Source: Acetobacterium malicum subsp. dehalogenans DSM 11527
Lineage (GTDB): Bacteria > Bacillota > Clostridia > Eubacteriales > Eubacteriaceae
Length of the DNA stretch: 39,260 bases
Direction: 5' to 3'
Assembly: GCF_000472665.1 (NCBI RefSeq)
Contig: NZ_AXAC01000011.1
Span: 1-39,260, forward strand
The notes under the pieces were generated by a model. It searched no databases, had not been told where the DNA came from, and worked only from the letters and a program-made list of their open reading frames with translations. Below are positions 17,095 to 36,127 of the stretch, piece after piece; positions within the stretch are counted from its first letter, which is position 1, and each line of letters starts with the position of its first letter. Made by a program: the position numbers and the translations under genes.

Positions 17095-17113
17095 CATCAG
17101 TGAAAAATAGGCG

Positions 17114-17141
17114 GAGTCTGTCGGTAAAAAACGACAGACTC
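17114..17141 (+). terminator. Hairpin terminator after dacF
   Basis: GAGTCTGTCG (17114-17123) pairs perfectly with CGACAGACTC (17132-17141) around an A-rich loop. The following sequence is T-containing but not a long T run, so termination may be incomplete. Confidence 0.6.
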
Positions 17142-17154
17142 TGATTATTATTGC

Positions 17155-17183
17155 TTGACATGTATAGACAAGTGGTTTATAAT
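17155..17183 (+). promoter_or_regulatory. Sigma-A promoter of the cbiMQO operon
   Basis: TTGACA (17155-17160), exactly 17 bases, then TATAAT (17178-17183): a full consensus match. It leaves a leader of about 140 bases before cbiM. Confidence 0.88.
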
Positions 17184-17329
17184 TTAGATAGTATTTAAAG
17201 CATTGAAGTGCAGAATACGAATCAATTTTAAGATACGAAAATGATGCCATGAAGGTATTTCCAGAGTTGAAACTTGGAGGTGTTCTTCGTGTTTTTTTGT
17301 ATAAAGTTAAATTTTGAGGAGGTTTTATT
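17184..17329 (+). promoter_or_regulatory. cbiM 5' leader with a candidate attenuator hairpin (17251-17298)
   Basis: GAAGGTATTTCC (17251-17262) can pair with GGAGGTGTTCTTC (17276-17288) if one base is bulged and GT pairs are allowed, with a small inner AGT/ACT stem. It is followed by GTG and T7. That is the layout of an intrinsic terminator in a leader, 30 bases before the cbiM ribosome binding site GAGGAGG. I do not see the conserved cobalamin-riboswitch box and cannot match it to the NiCo riboswitch, so any sensing element would be unidentified. Confidence 0.4.
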
Positions 17330-18343
17330 ATGCACATGGCAGATGCTTTAGTTTCTCCGGCAGTTGGAGGAATCATGCTTGCGGCTAGCGCCGGAGCAAT
17401 CGCCTATTCGGCGTATAAATGTAAAGACGATTTAGATGAAAAAAAGATCCCGTTGATGGGTGTTATGGGGGCCGTTATTTTCGCTGGACAGATGATTAAT
17501 TTCACCATTCCGGGAACTGGTTCCAGTGGACATATTGGCGGGGGGATTTTGCTGGCAGCCTTATTGGGACCATTTCCGGCATTTTTAACCCTTACCGCAG
17601 TGTTATTGATTCAGGCTTTATTCTTTGCTGACGGCGGGCTTTTGGCCTTAGGCGCAAATATCTGGAACCTCGGTTTCTATGCCTGTTTACTGGTTTACCC
17701 CTTTGTATTTAAACCGATTGTGAAAAAAGCCCTGACCCCGACCCGAATATCAGTAGCATCGGTGGTGTCGGTTATTTTAGCCCTGACCCTGGGAGCCATT
17801 TCGGTGGTGATTCAAACCCTGGCTTCCGGCATTACTGAATTGCCAATGGCAACCTTTATGGGAATGATGATTCCGATTCATCTGGCGATTGGTCTGGTTG
17901 AAGGGATTGTTACCGGCGGGATTTTAGTTTTTATCTACAAGATGAGACCGGAATTGCTGGAATCATCCATGGATAACAAAAAATTACCGAAAAACCTGTC
18001 GATTCAAAAGGTCTTGGGTGTTCTGCTGGTGTTTGCCATTGTTGTTGGTGGTGGTTTGTCGCTGCTGGCTTCTTCCAATCCTGATGGCTTGGAATGGTCA
18101 ATGGAAAATGTAGCGGGAACTGCTGAGCTGGAAACCTCAGGCAATGCCTATGACAGTGCTGCCAATATTCAGGAAAGTACTGCGTTCCTGCCGGATTACG
18201 GTTTCAAATCAACGGATGGTGAAGGCTCAGCTGCCGGAACCAGTGTGTCTGGTATTATTGGTGCAGGAATTACTCTGGTCCTGGCTGGTGGAACCGGTTA
18301 TCTGATTTACGCTGTCAAACGCCGAAAAGAAAAAACAGCATAG
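17330..18343 (+). CDS. cbiM: Cobalt/nickel ECF transporter substrate-binding subunit CbiM fused to a PDGLE domain
   Basis: The S-component of an energy-coupling-factor importer for Co2+ or Ni2+. The N-terminus MHMADALVSP contains the His at position 2 that helps bind metal in this family. Six or so membrane segments cover about 1-205, with the family stretch HIGGGILLAALLGPFPAF at about 64-81. From about 225 a second part follows: a membrane segment (225-245), PDGLEWSMENVAG at about 250-262, an extracellular loop with PDYGF, and a final membrane segment (304-328). That is the PDGLE/CbiN-like accessory domain, here fused. Metal choice between cobalt and nickel cannot be read from the sequence; the nearby cobamide genes favour cobalt. 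Confidence 0.92.
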   Translation: MHMADALVSPAVGGIMLAASAGAIAYSAYKCKDDLDEKKIPLMGVMGAVIFAGQMINFTIPGTGSSGHIGGGILLAALLGPFPAFLTLTAVLLIQALFFADGGLLALGANIWNLGFYACLLVYPFVFKPIVKKALTPTRISVASVVSVILALTLGAISVVIQTLASGITELPMATFMGMMIPIHLAIGLVEGIVTGGILVFIYKMRPELLESSMDNKKLPKNLSIQKVLGVLLVFAIVVGGGLSLLASSNPDGLEWSMENVAGTAELETSGNAYDSAANIQESTAFLPDYGFKSTDGEGSAAGTSVSGIIGAGITLVLAGGTGYLIYAVKRRKEKTA

Positions 18344-18403: not shown

Positions 18404-18433
18404 AATAACCTCTGTTTAGTAACAGAGGTTATT
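18404..18433 (+). promoter_or_regulatory. Intercistronic hairpin between cbiM and cbiQ
   Basis: AATAACCTCTGTT (18404-18416) pairs perfectly with 18421-18433 around TAGT. No T run follows, so it may set relative expression or mRNA stability of cbiM against cbiQO rather than stop transcription. Confidence 0.55.
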
Positions 18434-18459: not shown

Positions 18460-19257
18460 ATGTCAACAATTACCGACTCCATGAATACAATCAATTCCCT
18501 TGAGGAAATGGCTGAAGGCGATACCATCATCCATCGCCTCCATCCGATGGTTAAACTGATTACCACGATGCTCTATCTGGTGCTGGTTATTTCATTTAAT
18601 CCTTACAATATAACCGGACTGATGGTCTTTGCGTTCTATCCGGTGATTTTAATGGCGCTGGCTGAGATTCCCTATAAACCTCTGCTGAAACGGCTTTTGG
18701 TGGCCTTGCCCTTTTCTTTTTTTGCCGGCTTATCAAATATCATTTTTAATCAGCAACTGGCTCTGATGATCGGGCCGATGCCCGTCAGTTATGGTTTTAT
18801 CTCCTTTACGTCAATTATGGTTAAAACCATTTTTACAGTTATGGCGGTGCTGATCCTGATTGCCACTACCTCGCTACCAAAGATTTCCTATCAGTTGTTA
18901 TCCATCAAAGTACCCAAAATAATTGTGGAGCAAATTATGCTGACCTACCGTTACATTTCGGTGTTGCTGGAACAGGTCTCTAATATGTATACCGCCTATA
19001 TCTTGAGAGCCCCGGCTTCCAAGGGGATCAAAATGAAGGACATGGGTATCTTTGTCGGGCAGTTGTTATTAAAAAGTTTTGACCGGGCCGAAAGTATTTA
19101 TGTGGCCATGAAATGTCGGGGATACGACGGCAATTATCTGTATGCCAAACCCAGCCCGATCCAAAAGGGCGATTGGCTATTTCTGGTTTTAGTATCCGGT
19201 ATTTTATGTTTGATGCGATTTTTTGATCTGAGCCTGTTTATCGGCAGTTTTTTATAA
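18460..19257 (+). CDS. cbiQ: ECF transporter transmembrane subunit CbiQ
   Basis: A 265-residue T-component that couples the ATPase to the CbiM subunit. Several membrane segments lie at about 35-100 and 118-145, with one more at the C-terminus (245-262). The two cytoplasmic coupling helices carry the family's short Arg-containing motifs, visible as LRAPASKGIK (about 185-194) and AMKCRGYDG (about 219-227). The start follows GAAAGG nine bases upstream. The gene lies 116 bases after cbiM, behind a stable hairpin, and 12 bases before cbiO. Confidence 0.93.
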   Translation: MSTITDSMNTINSLEEMAEGDTIIHRLHPMVKLITTMLYLVLVISFNPYNITGLMVFAFYPVILMALAEIPYKPLLKRLLVALPFSFFAGLSNIIFNQQLALMIGPMPVSYGFISFTSIMVKTIFTVMAVLILIATTSLPKISYQLLSIKVPKIIVEQIMLTYRYISVLLEQVSNMYTAYILRAPASKGIKMKDMGIFVGQLLLKSFDRAESIYVAMKCRGYDGNYLYAKPSPIQKGDWLFLVLVSGILCLMRFFDLSLFIGSFL

Positions 19258-19269
19258 TGAGGAGTTCCA

Positions 19270-20001
19270 ATGTTAGAAATTGAAAAGTTAAACTATGCCT
19301 ATCCCGACGGGCATCAGGCGATTCGGGATATCAATCTGAAAATCGAAGAGGGTGAGAGCATTGCCCTGGTCGGAGCCAATGGAGCGGGAAAATCCAGCTT
19401 GTTCAAACTGATTATCGGTATCTCCGAAATCAAAGAAGGATCAATAAAAGTTGAGGAACTGTCAGTCGGTAAAAAAACGCTGAAAGATATTCGCCGAAAA
19501 GTCGGGATGGTTTTTCAGAACCCGGATGATCAGTTGTTTATGACTAAGGTTTATGACGACATCGCCTTTGGCCCGCGTAATGAACTATTAACCGAGGAAG
19601 AAGTGGAAACGCGGGTGGTTAACGCCCTGGAGCAGTTGGGAATCACCCATCTTCGGGACCGGATGCCCCATCGTTTATCGGGCGGCGAAAAACGGGTTAT
19701 CGCGATAGCCTCGGTACTGGCCATGAATCCCCGGGTTATTTTATTTGACGAACCGACCTCATTTCTGGATCCCCAGGCCCGACGAAATGTAATTAATACT
19801 CTGGACTCCCTGAAGATGACTAAAATTATTGCCACCCATGATCTGGATATGGCCCTTGATATCTGTGACCGGGTGATTATCTTACACCATGGCAGTGTGT
19901 TTGCCGATGGTACGGTCAAAGACATTCTATTAGATGAAAATCTTTTATCCCAATGTCATCTGGAGCTGCCGCTGTGCATGCAAAAACCCCGGGTTCGATA
20001 G
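19270..20001 (+). CDS. cbiO: Cobalt/nickel ECF transporter ATPase CbiO
   Basis: A 243-residue ABC ATPase that powers the importer. Walker A GANGAGKSS is at about 36-44, the Q-loop at FQNPDDQLF (about 83-91), the signature LSGGEKR at about 136-142, Walker B ILFDEPTSFLDP at about 157-168, and the switch His in ATHDLDM at about 196. The NPDDQLF form of the Q-loop is typical of ECF-type CbiO/EcfA proteins. It is the last gene of the operon, followed by the terminator at 20068. Only one ATPase gene is present, so it would act as a homodimer. Confidence 0.95.
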   Translation: MLEIEKLNYAYPDGHQAIRDINLKIEEGESIALVGANGAGKSSLFKLIIGISEIKEGSIKVEELSVGKKTLKDIRRKVGMVFQNPDDQLFMTKVYDDIAFGPRNELLTEEEVETRVVNALEQLGITHLRDRMPHRLSGGEKRVIAIASVLAMNPRVILFDEPTSFLDPQARRNVINTLDSLKMTKIIATHDLDMALDICDRVIILHHGSVFADGTVKDILLDENLLSQCHLELPLCMQKPRVR

Positions 20002-20094: not shown

Positions 20095-20227
20095 AAATTG
20101 AAGAATGATACGTCGAGGAAACAAAAAATCTTGAATTTATTTAAAGAATGGCATCGGGAAATGGTTTCTTAATTGAAATTTTAAATTTTATAAGATATAA
20201 TTAATGCAATGTTTGGGAGGTCAAACG

Positions 20228-21508
20228 ATGACAAAAAAAGATTATTCGAATATCGGCAATGATATCAAGGACATTGTTCAGGATGCCTTGAATTCAGCGG
20301 AGTTTAAAGAACTGAATAAAAACATTTCGGAGACCGTTGCCCGGGCTATGGATGAAGTTAAACGAAGCGGTCAGTATTGGCAGGAGCAACAGCGACAACA
20401 ACGTGAAAACAACCAGGAAAACCGAAAGCAGGCGGCAAATATCAGGAAGACCCAGGAAAAAATGAACAGACCTCAGCCACAGGAAATGGTGGCCAGAAAC
20501 AACGTTCAGAATACCCGCAGTCCCGTCAAAAAGCAGCCAAGTAACCTGATTTCAAAATCACCCCATGGTCGAATCTCCGGGATGCTGTTGAAGATTTTTG
20601 GAAATATTGGTATTGGTGTGACATTGCTGTTGCTGCTTATTTTTTCATCGGTTTTTGGTTTTTCATTTACCAGTATGCCGCTGATGGGGATCAGTGCCGG
20701 GATTCTGTTGCCGATTTTTACAATCAGTGCGCTGATGTCGGCCAAAGGGTCGAACCTGCGGGGGCGAGTGAAGCGGTTTCGTCAGTACACCAGTCGTTTG
20801 AAAGGACGGCAATTTTGTAAAATTTCCGAATTGTCAGAGCCCATTGGCCGCAGTAAGAAATATGTGGTCAAAGATCTCCGTAAAATGATTAGTTTGGGGA
20901 TGTTCCCGGAAGGACGTTTTGATGAGCAGGAAGAATATCTGTTGATCAGTAATGAAGCCTATGAGAATCATCTAAGACTCGCCGAAGGAAAGAAACGCCA
21001 GGAAGAAAAAGCACGATCGGAACAGCAGGCGTCGGATCTGAAAAGGAAGCGGGAAGCCGAAAACCCTGAAATGAAAGCAGTTCATGAGGTGATTGCCGAA
21101 GGCCAAGACACAATCCGGCAAATCAACGAAGCCAATGTAGCGATCGAAGGGGAGGTTATTTCTCTGAAACTGGACCGACTGGAAAAAGTGATTACCAAGA
21201 TCTTCGAATTTATTGAAGAAAACCCGGATGGATTACCGGAAATACGTAAATTTATGGGTTATTATCTGCCCACTACCTTAAAGCTGGTCTCGGTCTACCG
21301 GGATTTAGATGCCGAACCGATTCAGGGAGCCAATATTCTGGCCACCAAAAAAGAAATCGAAGATACCCTGGACACGATCAGCCACGCCTTTGAAAACCTG
21401 CTTGACAGTTTTTACGAAGACACCGCCATGGATGTCTCAACGGATATTTCAGTACTTAACACGATGTTGGCCCAGGAAGGGCTAACCAAACGAGATTTTA
21501 AAAAATAG
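20228..21508 (+). CDS. XpaC family protein (5-bromo-4-chloroindolyl phosphate hydrolysis protein)
   Basis: A 426-residue protein. The charged N-terminal part (1-105) contains Gln/Arg/Asn-rich coiled-coil-like sequence. Two adjacent membrane segments follow at about 122-145 and 147-170. After these come a winged-helix-like region (about 190-245), a Lys/Glu coiled coil (about 250-310) and the XpaC domain at about 315-425, with FMGYYLPTTLKLVSVYRDLD. XpaC proteins are typically paired with TelA, as here, 72 bases downstream. The family name reflects an old phenotype; the biochemical role is unclear. The ATG at 20228 has GGGAGG nine bases upstream; an in-frame ATG at 20204 would cover that site. 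Confidence 0.85.
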   Translation: MTKKDYSNIGNDIKDIVQDALNSAEFKELNKNISETVARAMDEVKRSGQYWQEQQRQQRENNQENRKQAANIRKTQEKMNRPQPQEMVARNNVQNTRSPVKKQPSNLISKSPHGRISGMLLKIFGNIGIGVTLLLLLIFSSVFGFSFTSMPLMGISAGILLPIFTISALMSAKGSNLRGRVKRFRQYTSRLKGRQFCKISELSEPIGRSKKYVVKDLRKMISLGMFPEGRFDEQEEYLLISNEAYENHLRLAEGKKRQEEKARSEQQASDLKRKREAENPEMKAVHEVIAEGQDTIRQINEANVAIEGEVISLKLDRLEKVITKIFEFIEENPDGLPEIRKFMGYYLPTTLKLVSVYRDLDAEPIQGANILATKKEIEDTLDTISHAFENLLDSFYEDTAMDVSTDISVLNTMLAQEGLTKRDFKK

Positions 21509-21580
21509 CAACGATTGAGCAATCAGCTGATGACATTTTAGTAATCATCAAGATAAATTTATGATACGAGGAGAATAGCG

Positions 21581-22732
21581 ATGGAAGATAATATGAACGA
21601 TTATTCCCAGGCAACCCCGACCCTGACCTTTGACCCATTTGAAGAAGAAAAAACAGTGACCGCCAATGTGCATCAGGAATTGAAGGGGGAACGGGAAGTT
21701 TTTGACGAAAGTCGATTGACCCCGGAAGAACGCCGGATGGTGGATGATTTTGCAAGCAAAATCGATCTTACCAATTCCAGCCTGGTGATGCAGTTTGGGG
21801 TTGGAGCGCAAAAGAAAATTGCCGATTTTTCAGAAACGGCGTTGAATAATGTCCGTACCAAAGATATGGGCGAGGTTGGCAAAATGCTTGGCGATATGGT
21901 CATGGAACTGCGGAACTTTGACATTGAGGAAGAAGACAAAGGCTTTTTGGGCTTTTTCAAGAAAAGCAGCAACAAGCTTAGCTCGATGCAGACCCGCTAT
22001 GCTACTGCCGAAACCAATGTCAACCGGATTACCGAAGCGTTGGAGAAACATCAGATGCAGCTGTTAAAAGATGTCGCCATGCTGGATAAACTCTACGATG
22101 TCAATAAAACCTATTTTAAAGAACTGTCGATGTATATTATGGCCGGCAAAAAGAAACTCCAGGAAGTTGAAACCAAAGAGTTGCCGGAACTGATCAAGCG
22201 CTCACAACTCAGTGGGCTGCCGGAAGATGCTCAGGCAGTTAATGATTTGTCGGCGATGTGCAATCGCTTTGAGAAGAAAATTCACGATCTGGAACTGACC
22301 CGGATGATCTCCATTCAGATGGCACCACAGATCCGGCTGGTTCAGCACAATGATACCCTGATGGCTGAAAAAATCCAGTCTTCGATCGTCAACACGATTC
22401 CCTTATGGAAAAGTCAGATGGTGCTGGCTCTGGGGGTGGTTCATTCCGGCCAGGCGGCCAAGGCCCAGCGGGAAGTTACCAATATGACCAATGAATTGTT
22501 AAGAAAAAATGCCGAAACCCTGAAGATGGAATCGATCGCCACCGCCAAAGAATCGGAACGGGGCATTGTTGATATTGAAACCCTGCGAATTTCCAACGAA
22601 TCCCTGATTAGTACCTTTGATGAGGTGCTACGAATCCAGACCGAAGGCCGACAGAAACGAAAAGAAGTGGAAACCGAGCTTGAAAAGCTGGAAAATGACT
22701 TAAAAGTCAAGATGCTCGAAATCAGACGATAA
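21581..22732 (+). CDS. TelA/KlaA-type toxic anion resistance family protein
   Basis: A 383-residue, almost wholly helical and charged protein with no signal peptide. The family core is recognisable from about 115-380: DKGFLGFFKKSSNKLSSMQTR and the following helix with AETNVNRITEALEKHQMQLL, then MISIQMAPQIRLVQHNDTLM and QSSIVNTIPLWKSQMVLALG. TelA proteins were named for plasmid tellurite resistance, but chromosomal members paired with XpaC are more widely linked to envelope or antimicrobial stress. The ATG at 21581 has GAGGAG ten bases upstream. The pair ends at the terminator at 22741. Confidence 0.9.
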   Translation: MEDNMNDYSQATPTLTFDPFEEEKTVTANVHQELKGEREVFDESRLTPEERRMVDDFASKIDLTNSSLVMQFGVGAQKKIADFSETALNNVRTKDMGEVGKMLGDMVMELRNFDIEEEDKGFLGFFKKSSNKLSSMQTRYATAETNVNRITEALEKHQMQLLKDVAMLDKLYDVNKTYFKELSMYIMAGKKKLQEVETKELPELIKRSQLSGLPEDAQAVNDLSAMCNRFEKKIHDLELTRMISIQMAPQIRLVQHNDTLMAEKIQSSIVNTIPLWKSQMVLALGVVHSGQAAKAQREVTNMTNELLRKNAETLKMESIATAKESERGIVDIETLRISNESLISTFDEVLRIQTEGRQKRKEVETELEKLENDLKVKMLEIRR

Positions 22733-35829: not shown

Positions 35830-35940
35830 CCTCCTGAATGATTGTAGTTATTTTGTTTTCCACAAATTTTGGCAAATAAAAAAGTCCACAGCTGTTATTG
35901 TTACAATAACAGCCATGAACTTTACCTTCGTTCATTCAGG
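35830..35940 (-). promoter_or_regulatory. Expression platform: outer stem overlapping the bzaA ribosome binding site
   Basis: TCATTCAGG on the plus strand at 35932-35940 is complementary to CCTGAATGA at 35833-35841. On the minus strand the second arm runs directly into the bzaA AGGAGG (35835-35830), overlapping it by three bases. The pairing would enclose the terminator hairpin. It suggests a second, translational layer of control, which is inference. Confidence 0.4.
35874..35923 (-). terminator. Riboswitch-controlled intrinsic terminator before bzaA
   Basis: A 20-bp stem (35904-35923 with 35881-35900; three GT pairs, otherwise Watson-Crick, TTA loop) ends in ACTTTTTTATTT on the minus strand. 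It lies between the riboswitch and bzaA, where an expression platform is expected. Confidence 0.88.
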
Positions 35941-35944
35941 ATCG

Positions 35945-36106
35945 ATTCATAGGCAGGTCTCCTGACTCGGGGTTTTAGCGCTGCGCCACACCTTCCCATT
36001 AAAAAACAGTGGTTTTTGTGGTTTGCTCCGCCCTTACAGTGATGGGTTCGTTCAGGACTCTCACCTGATTCCCTATTCTCCTTATTACTAAGGCACCTAT
36101 GCTCGC
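35945..36106 (-). ncRNA. Cobalamin (AdoCbl-type) riboswitch
   Basis: On the minus strand the conserved B12 box AGTCAGGAGACCTGCCT lies at 35967-35951. Upstream in the RNA are GGTGCC near 36097, GGGAATCAGGTGAGAGTCC near 36070-36052, and GGGCGGAGCAAACCAC near 36035-36020. GGAAGGTGTGGCGC near 35990 completes the core. This order matches the family and its position is that of a leader for bzaA. In acetogens such elements repress bza genes when cobalamin is abundant. The boundary is approximate. Confidence 0.93.
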
Positions 36107-36127
36107 TTTTTTATTCACTTATTCTTA

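Follow-up and report, generated by a model that had tools for sequence, protein, structure and literature searches.

The window (the whole stretch of DNA analysed here, 39,260 nucleotides) carries the genes cbiM/nikM, cbiQ/nikQ and cbiO/nikO in a row, and by CbiM protein the closest named relatives of its genome are Acetobacterium species. Transcription would start near 17190, behind a sigma-70-type promoter, and a leader of about 140 nt separates the promoter from cbiM, which starts at 17330 after an SD-like GAGGAGG (Table 1). The initial annotation had described a consensus promoter and a leader of this length containing a terminator-like hairpin with a T7 run and lacking a cobalamin box, and all of these claims hold: at gathering threshold the sole Rfam match in the whole window is a cobalamin riboswitch at 35935-36114 on the reverse strand, the leader has no match, and a search of 17100-17400 returned only three chance-level matches (E 6.9-9.7). 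Within the promoter spacer (17161-17170) lies an inverted-repeat-like sequence, TGTATAGACA, common to the closest leaders (L001-L007) and not found in L008-L011, which we take to be reminiscent of GntR/HutC operators. The nikM-nikQ gap holds, at 18404-18433, a strong hairpin (13 pairs) and then TAATATTTAA, possibly a weak terminator or a processing site. Downstream of nikO, Halogen_Hydrol-family (XpaC-like) and TelA genes occupy 20173-22732, with an 11/12 promoter ahead.

Table 1. Features of the cbiM leader and the genes behind it (window coordinates)
Feature	Position	Strand	Detail
Sigma-70-type promoter TTGACA-17-TATAAT	17155-17183	+	consensus match 12/12
P1 hairpin	17191-17218	+	outer stem GUAUUU/GAAUAC, inner stem GCAU/GUGC, loop UGAA 17204-17207; RNAfold
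Conserved AA 5' of P2 (-9/-8 from loop)	17240-17241	+	77% and 75% A in 134 filtered distinct copies
P2 mini-hairpin AUGCC-AUGAA-GGUAU, proposed antiterminator	17244-17258	+	stem covariation in 46 curated elements
Intrinsic terminator	17248-17298	+	17248-17255 pairs with 17284-17291, upper stem between; T7 17292-17298
cbiM/nikM with fused PDGLE (NikMN type), controlled gene	17330-18343	+	PF01891 2.5e-55, PF13190 2.4e-30
cbiQ/nikQ	18460-19257	+	PF02361 4.1e-29
cbiO/nikO	19270-20001	+	PF00005 2.8e-34

The 5' arm of the terminator can also fold by itself as a mini-hairpin, P2, and because 17248-17255 is common to both structures the two are mutually exclusive. By folding alone the signal is modest (17240-17300, z -2.51, with 3 of 200 shuffles equally good; longer leader stretches, z -1.6 to -1.9, with 6 to 12 of 200 equally good), and it is by conservation that the terminator hairpin stands beyond chance. 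A consensus terminator scan did not list the 17248-17291 hairpin, we think because of its internal loop.

Lack of conservation had been named as a possible refutation, and the leader proved to be conserved. When 61 genomes were searched at the DNA level, 22 matched the query at least in part, and the hairpin lies upstream of a conserved cbiM start at 18 loci in 17 genomes; at L016, L017 and L020 the match came through the gene alone. The 5' arm of the terminator is near-constant (AUGCCAUGAAGGUAU in most Acetobacterium copies), and the upper stem and 3' arm vary among copies with pairing mostly kept. A covariance model built from 13 copies (R1) matched 62 of 198 genomes at E ≤1, including other families and further copies in the same genomes, mostly before transport or metal-linked genes. 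A second model (R2) matched 62 of 393 class genomes and 55 of 299 phylum genomes at E ≤0.01; a single genome had as many as 11 matches, and some matches lay on the strand opposite another. A genome-wide pattern search gave 40 matches in 16 genomes, some of them in apparent coding sequence or opposite an element, versus 1 with the reversed pattern.

The element also emerges from a protein-first set of 80 loci fetched by CbiM protein alone (the best 80 of 390). Within the 200 bases before cbiM, 36 of these best 80 contain a C-closed NGAA/RNGAA hairpin with a stem of 5 bp or more, against a shuffle mean of 0.43 and at most 3 (100 runs); without the first twelve loci (Acetobacterium, Eubacterium, Eubacteriaceae) the count is 26 of 68 versus 0.38. 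By the same criterion it is missing from 44 of the 80 cbiM leaders, including those of Eubacterium barkeri and E. aggregans (L221, L222). As a control, 127 leaders preceding other ORFs at these loci, a set from which only cbiM leaders had been removed, contain the hairpin in 3 cases; two of the three are themselves the element, upstream of a methyltransferase in L214 and of FmdE in L269. Two other controls were set aside: in element-rich loci 25 of 184 other leaders have the hairpin, nearly all of them elements missed by the strict pattern, and 0 of 32 have it in loci with HutP matches, a loose motif match in their own genome or weak model matches, where element-pattern leaders had been removed beforehand. 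Element-bearing cbiM leaders were found in Caldicoprobacter oshimai, Sinanaerobacter chloroacetimidivorans, Pelotomaculum propionicicum and Desulfoscipio geothermicus, among others. Beyond Bacillota, the element appears in two MAGs, one of Leptolinea (Chloroflexota), with both P1 and P2, and one of Spirochaetaceae (model E 3e-5), each a single metagenome bin whose contigs are possibly misplaced. The open-access literature, which mostly excludes subscription papers, yielded nothing on this RNA, and we regard it as a conserved RNA element for which we found no existing name.

Covariation in aligned leaders, proposed earlier as a check, is present across 46 curated elements and absent among the genus's 13 cbiM copies, where the P2 stem is near-invariant; because the stem hardly varies inside the genus, the signal comes from other genes and families. 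The 46 elements were selected, with P2 stems already known, from 62 same-strand R1 matches, omitting the 16 opposite-strand matches and mostly near-duplicates and short palindromes, plus two matches lacking a GAA loop (L085:3737, L075:4971). In this set the five-pair P2 stem is paired in 94.3% of cells, versus 77.8% in shuffles and 24-45% in slid controls, with both-sided changes in four of the five pairs, and on the same alignment the terminator is paired in 84.9% of cells versus 74.3%. The sequence GAAG at the P2 loop is identical in 46 of 46; the loop ends in GAA and is closed by a C-G pair. At least four P2 pairs form in 56 of the 62 same-strand matches, and none of the 16 opposite-strand matches, which are palindromic terminators only, has more than one. 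A broader set of 134 copies was filtered from 147 fetched elements by requiring [AG]NGA[AG]G and at least three stem pairs, so that the invariance of G, A and G in it is partly by construction; here a five-base RNGAA loop occurs in 132 (AUGAA 76, ACGAA 46, AAGAA 4, GUGAA 4, GCGAA 2, others 2), and the stem positions before the loop are C in 97% (-1) and 88% (-2) of copies. The leader has what marks a transcription attenuator, a terminator and an exclusive alternative hairpin, both conserved.

A second hairpin with a similar loop, P1, often lies upstream. Of 90 non-redundant leaders, drawn from 95 elements, 40 have such a hairpin in the 110 bases before P2 (stem 5 bp or longer, loop ANGAA or NGAA with N other than G), compared with a mean of 2.7 and a maximum of 8 in 200 runs of dinucleotide shuffles; no P1 was found in the other 50, nor ahead of P2 at L018 and L019. 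Among P1 hairpins of at least 6 bp the commonest tetraloops are AGAA (8), UGAA (6) and CGAA (4), and the commonest pentaloop is AUGAA (10). The distance between P1 and P2 is highly variable, reaching about 90 nt. The window's P1 begins at the predicted 5' end of the RNA and lies outside the count of 40 because its inner run has only four pairs; this inner hairpin is also predicted in 10 of 18 cbiM leaders from the genus (L001-L010).

We next assigned the gene following each of the 147 elements, which are the fetched part of all matches. With seed families drawn from the same 147 elements, 23 of these genes had no assignment and 124 were related to a seed: ECF S-component (44), NikM/CbiM (18), NikA-like (16), SAM methyltransferase (14), NikB-like (8), BtuF/FepB-like (7), FmdE (5), ABC ATPase (4), DUF4198-like (2), CsoR (2), and LarC, LarE, FecCD and MATE (1 each). 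Profile searches in NCBIfam or Pfam confirmed one representative each of LarE (TIGR00268, 7.9e-85), LarC (PF01969, 5.8e-156), FmdE, CbiM and SBP_bac_5 and two of PF12822, and Pfam confirmed one CsoR-type protein; CooT (PF10133, 5.7e-27) lies inside an element-led operon. The labels DUF4198, AcsB and CDF exporter are our presumption, given in part by eye. The element thus recurs, as a regulon element does, before unrelated nickel/cobalt genes (CbiM, LarE, LarC, FmdE, CooT). LarC and LarE make the nickel-pincer cofactor and so indicate nickel, and CbiM indicates nickel or cobalt. Since the substrate of the S-component, the commonest target, gives no guide, it is these other targets that make us read the regulon as one for nickel. 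The element marks a nickel (with cobalt) regulon of uptake and nickel-cofactor genes, and this gene content suggests a response to nickel.

Several target loci have distinctive layouts. An element-controlled ECF S-component is followed by a kinase-like gene of one of two types in L108, L110, L113, L119, L123-L127, L135, L138, L140 and L142; one gene of each type was searched and both match PF00485, and in several of these loci the S-component lies close to DUF3842. The combination suggests import and phosphorylation of a small nickel-linked molecule, perhaps a nickel-pincer precursor. In the Acetobacterium group, L070, L071, L072 and L074 combine NikABCDE-like transporters, several SAM methyltransferases and several elements, with an AstE/AspA-like deacylase and a CsoR-type gene added in L072 and, by eye, a MATE-like exporter in L070; these clusters look like a metallophore system.

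A search for protein partners singled out DUF3842 (PF12953), which occurs in 40 of 42 element genomes versus 14 of 37 genomes first taken as negative (p 2e-8). This p-value and those below are not blind, because four families (ANTAR, HutP, FmdE and NikR) had been searched earlier and DUF3842 was chosen after being sighted beside elements. The 42 had been hand-picked from 116 genomes with a model match before DUF3842 was considered (the ANTAR set was another 42), and the 37 were mostly the first genomes without a match. A permissive rerun gave weak matches in 20 of the 37, and on inspection of P2 and of the following gene by eye, elements were accepted in five genomes that all have DUF3842, namely G040, G460, G463 (variant loop AUGGA), G470 and G472; the remaining weak matches were rejected, including G471 and G026, both also with DUF3842. 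Accepted elements therefore fall in 5 of 14 DUF3842-bearing negatives and 0 of 23 without it. After this revision DUF3842 is present in 45 of 47 element genomes versus 9 of 32 others (Fisher p 1e-10), or by family in 28 of 30 versus 6 of 23 (p 4e-7). It was not found in element genomes G262 and G461, and it occurs in 9 genomes without an accepted element. ANTAR, HutP and FmdE are much less regular in element genomes; FmdE was rejected as sole partner (24 of 42 element genomes versus 10 of 37).

DUF3842 also lies near the element, within 2 kb in 19 of 47 element genomes. Locus L269 has the order element, DUF3842, CooT, element, FmdE, nikM; an element directly precedes DUF3842 in L382 and CooT-DUF3842 in L373 (model E only 0.064, P2 of 6 bp). 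In 18 of the 32 loci scanned CooT and DUF3842 are neighbours, with one place counted twice. In Acetobacterium, CooT and DUF3842 lie downstream of a 711-aa gene taken by eye for acsB, and NGAA-loop hairpins occur upstream of this gene in L363, L364 and L365 (CAATGTC-TGAA-GGCATTG, CAATGCC-TGAA-GGTATTG and GATACC-TGAA-GGTATC, respectively), their stems differing with pairing kept. A CooT-like domain sits within an open frame of 282 codons in L165 (4787-4972) and of 266 codons in L152 (2309-2494), possibly fused to another domain.

Pfam once labelled PF10133 (CooT) a predicted RNA-binding family, a label for which a literature search found no confirmation. CooT has a relative of solved structure, 6fan (E 4.8e-22). 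CooT is described as a dimer that binds one Ni with a Kd of 9 nM (PMC6006190), and deletion of cooT in Clostridium autoethanogenum changed CODH/ACS and ethanol proteins, in a report whose main text does not contain the word "transporter" (PMC10230548). The DUF3842 protein has no Pfam domain besides its own; a PDB profile search gave nothing significant (best, uL1 ribosomal proteins, E 0.2), an AlphaFold model built from two sequences reached a pLDDT of only 60.6, so that its Foldseek matches were left unused, and no paper on DUF3842 was found in the open-access literature. The DUF3842, CooT and FmdE proteins encoded in L269 gave no NCBIfam match. On this sequence-based evidence DUF3842 and CooT are the best lead for a trans-acting factor, and the pair may merely be members of the nickel regulon.

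Known systems share parts of this picture. The NiCo (czcD) riboswitch, RF02683, likewise serves nickel/cobalt homeostasis and is present in these bacteria, but the element does not match its covariance model in the window or in 20 loci, and this identity was rejected; the one RF02683 match in those loci lies away from the element (L143:3125-3214), before a gene that by eye resembles a CDF exporter, with the element before cbiM in the same locus. The cobalamin riboswitch (RF00174) controls Co uptake genes elsewhere and is present once in the window, but the leader lacks a match to it, and it too was rejected. NikR, which exerts nickel-dependent control over NikABCDE and NikMNQO (PMC2667541), is a DNA-binding repressor, and it exceeded the cut-off in only 3 of 42 element genomes, one of them strongly, leaving 39 with no match above it.

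The initial annotation offered either a metal- or cofactor-sensing RNA or a protein-dependent antiterminator, and a conserved, structured leader with no Rfam match and a nickel/cobalt regulon agrees with that framing. A true riboswitch, with Ni2+, Co2+ or a nickel cofactor recognised by the twin NGAA-loop hairpins themselves and no protein involved, would suit an RNA that is small, widespread and structured and has a coherent metal regulon. Tandem small hairpins are moreover a known riboswitch design, which the element fits: the guanidine-II class (mini-ykkC) senses guanidine with two hairpins, although its short conserved loop is ACGR rather than NGAA/RNGAA, and at the Rfam gathering threshold there was no guanidine-II match in the window or in 20 loci, nor any Rfam match over the element in them. 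We nevertheless consider a riboswitch the less likely reading: P1 is not found in 50 of 90 leaders and its spacing from P2 is highly variable, conservation in P2 is confined to a 15-nt hairpin, metal binding that stabilised P2 would activate uptake just when metal is present, the opposite of what an importer needs, and the DUF3842 association would be left unexplained. Dual-hairpin antitermination by an ANTAR-domain protein, as in eut, nas and ami, uses the same layout of a free P1 and a terminator-embedded P2 with conserved loop residues (eutV, nasR and amiR targets; PMC8934654, PMC3369931), and here too P2 overlaps the terminator's 5' arm. ANTAR loops, however, are hexaloops with A1 and G4, and linkers in E. 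faecalis eut genes are 5-12 nt, whereas the element has C-closed NGAA/RNGAA loops (RNGAA in P2), a P1 up to about 90 nt off at highly variable distance and a nickel/cobalt, not nitrogen, regulon. A search for ANTAR (PF03861) found nothing in 14 of 42 element genomes, and on loop sequence and gene content we rejected it as sole partner, a very improbable reading.

The remaining explanations carry hardly any weight. HutP recognises an NAG triplet and requires metal, and a HutP-type antiterminator acting on the GAAG core would find such a triplet in its AAG; HutP is indeed commoner in element genomes (26 of 42 versus 11 of 37, p 0.006), but searches for PF09021 found nothing in 16 of 42 element genomes, among them all four examined from the genus Acetobacterium, and as it is not universal there it was rejected as sole partner. 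Leader-peptide attenuation, with AUGAAG opening a short ORF whose translation controls the terminator, could draw on the window's ATG AAG GTA TTT, which stays open for 22 codons. It was rejected as scarcely credible because no SD precedes the ATG, ACG, AAG or GCG takes the place of ATG in 52 of 134 copies, and P2 stem pairs change together. That an ordinary constitutive terminator has been conserved by descent only is about as improbable: it would account for the near-identical leaders of close species, where P2 lacks covariation, but not for covariation across many genes and families, twin hairpins and a single kind of regulon.

We therefore favour, with a probability of roughly 60%, a transcription attenuator in which a factor active when nickel is scarce holds P2 through the NGAA loops, DUF3842 and CooT being the best candidates for it. 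This reading builds on what the sequences compared display: conservation of the element, covariation in P2 as well as in the terminator, NGAA loops on twin hairpins and a nickel(/cobalt) regulon. Because a P2 of 5-6 bp should not beat the terminator, read-through would need help, and two hairpins sharing one loop code at variable spacing would suit a protein that binds each loop. Under nickel scarcity the trans-acting factor would bind the NGAA loops and hold P2, blocking the terminator so that RNA polymerase reads through; with ample nickel it would release the RNA, and transcription would stop near 17298. Binding under scarcity would be a sensible sign for import genes. The twin NGAA-loop hairpins and the DUF3842/CooT link favour a protein-dependent antiterminator over a metal- or cofactor-sensing RNA. 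Only tentatively do we go further and propose a new nickel-responsive RNA antitermination class, in which a DUF3842/CooT system might sense nickel and bind the NGAA-loop hairpins.

In anaerobes of this kind nickel serves CODH/ACS, hydrogenases or the cofactor of lactate racemase. If the proposal is true, anaerobic Bacillota, and perhaps some Chloroflexota and Spirochaetota, would have a global nickel regulator that acts on RNA, rather than NikR on DNA, with one RNA element before uptake, chaperone and cofactor genes serving as their nickel regulator. Nickel sensing in these anaerobes, gas-fermenting acetogens among those for which it is relevant, would become directly testable, and DUF3842 and the ECF S-component would gain a functional lead.
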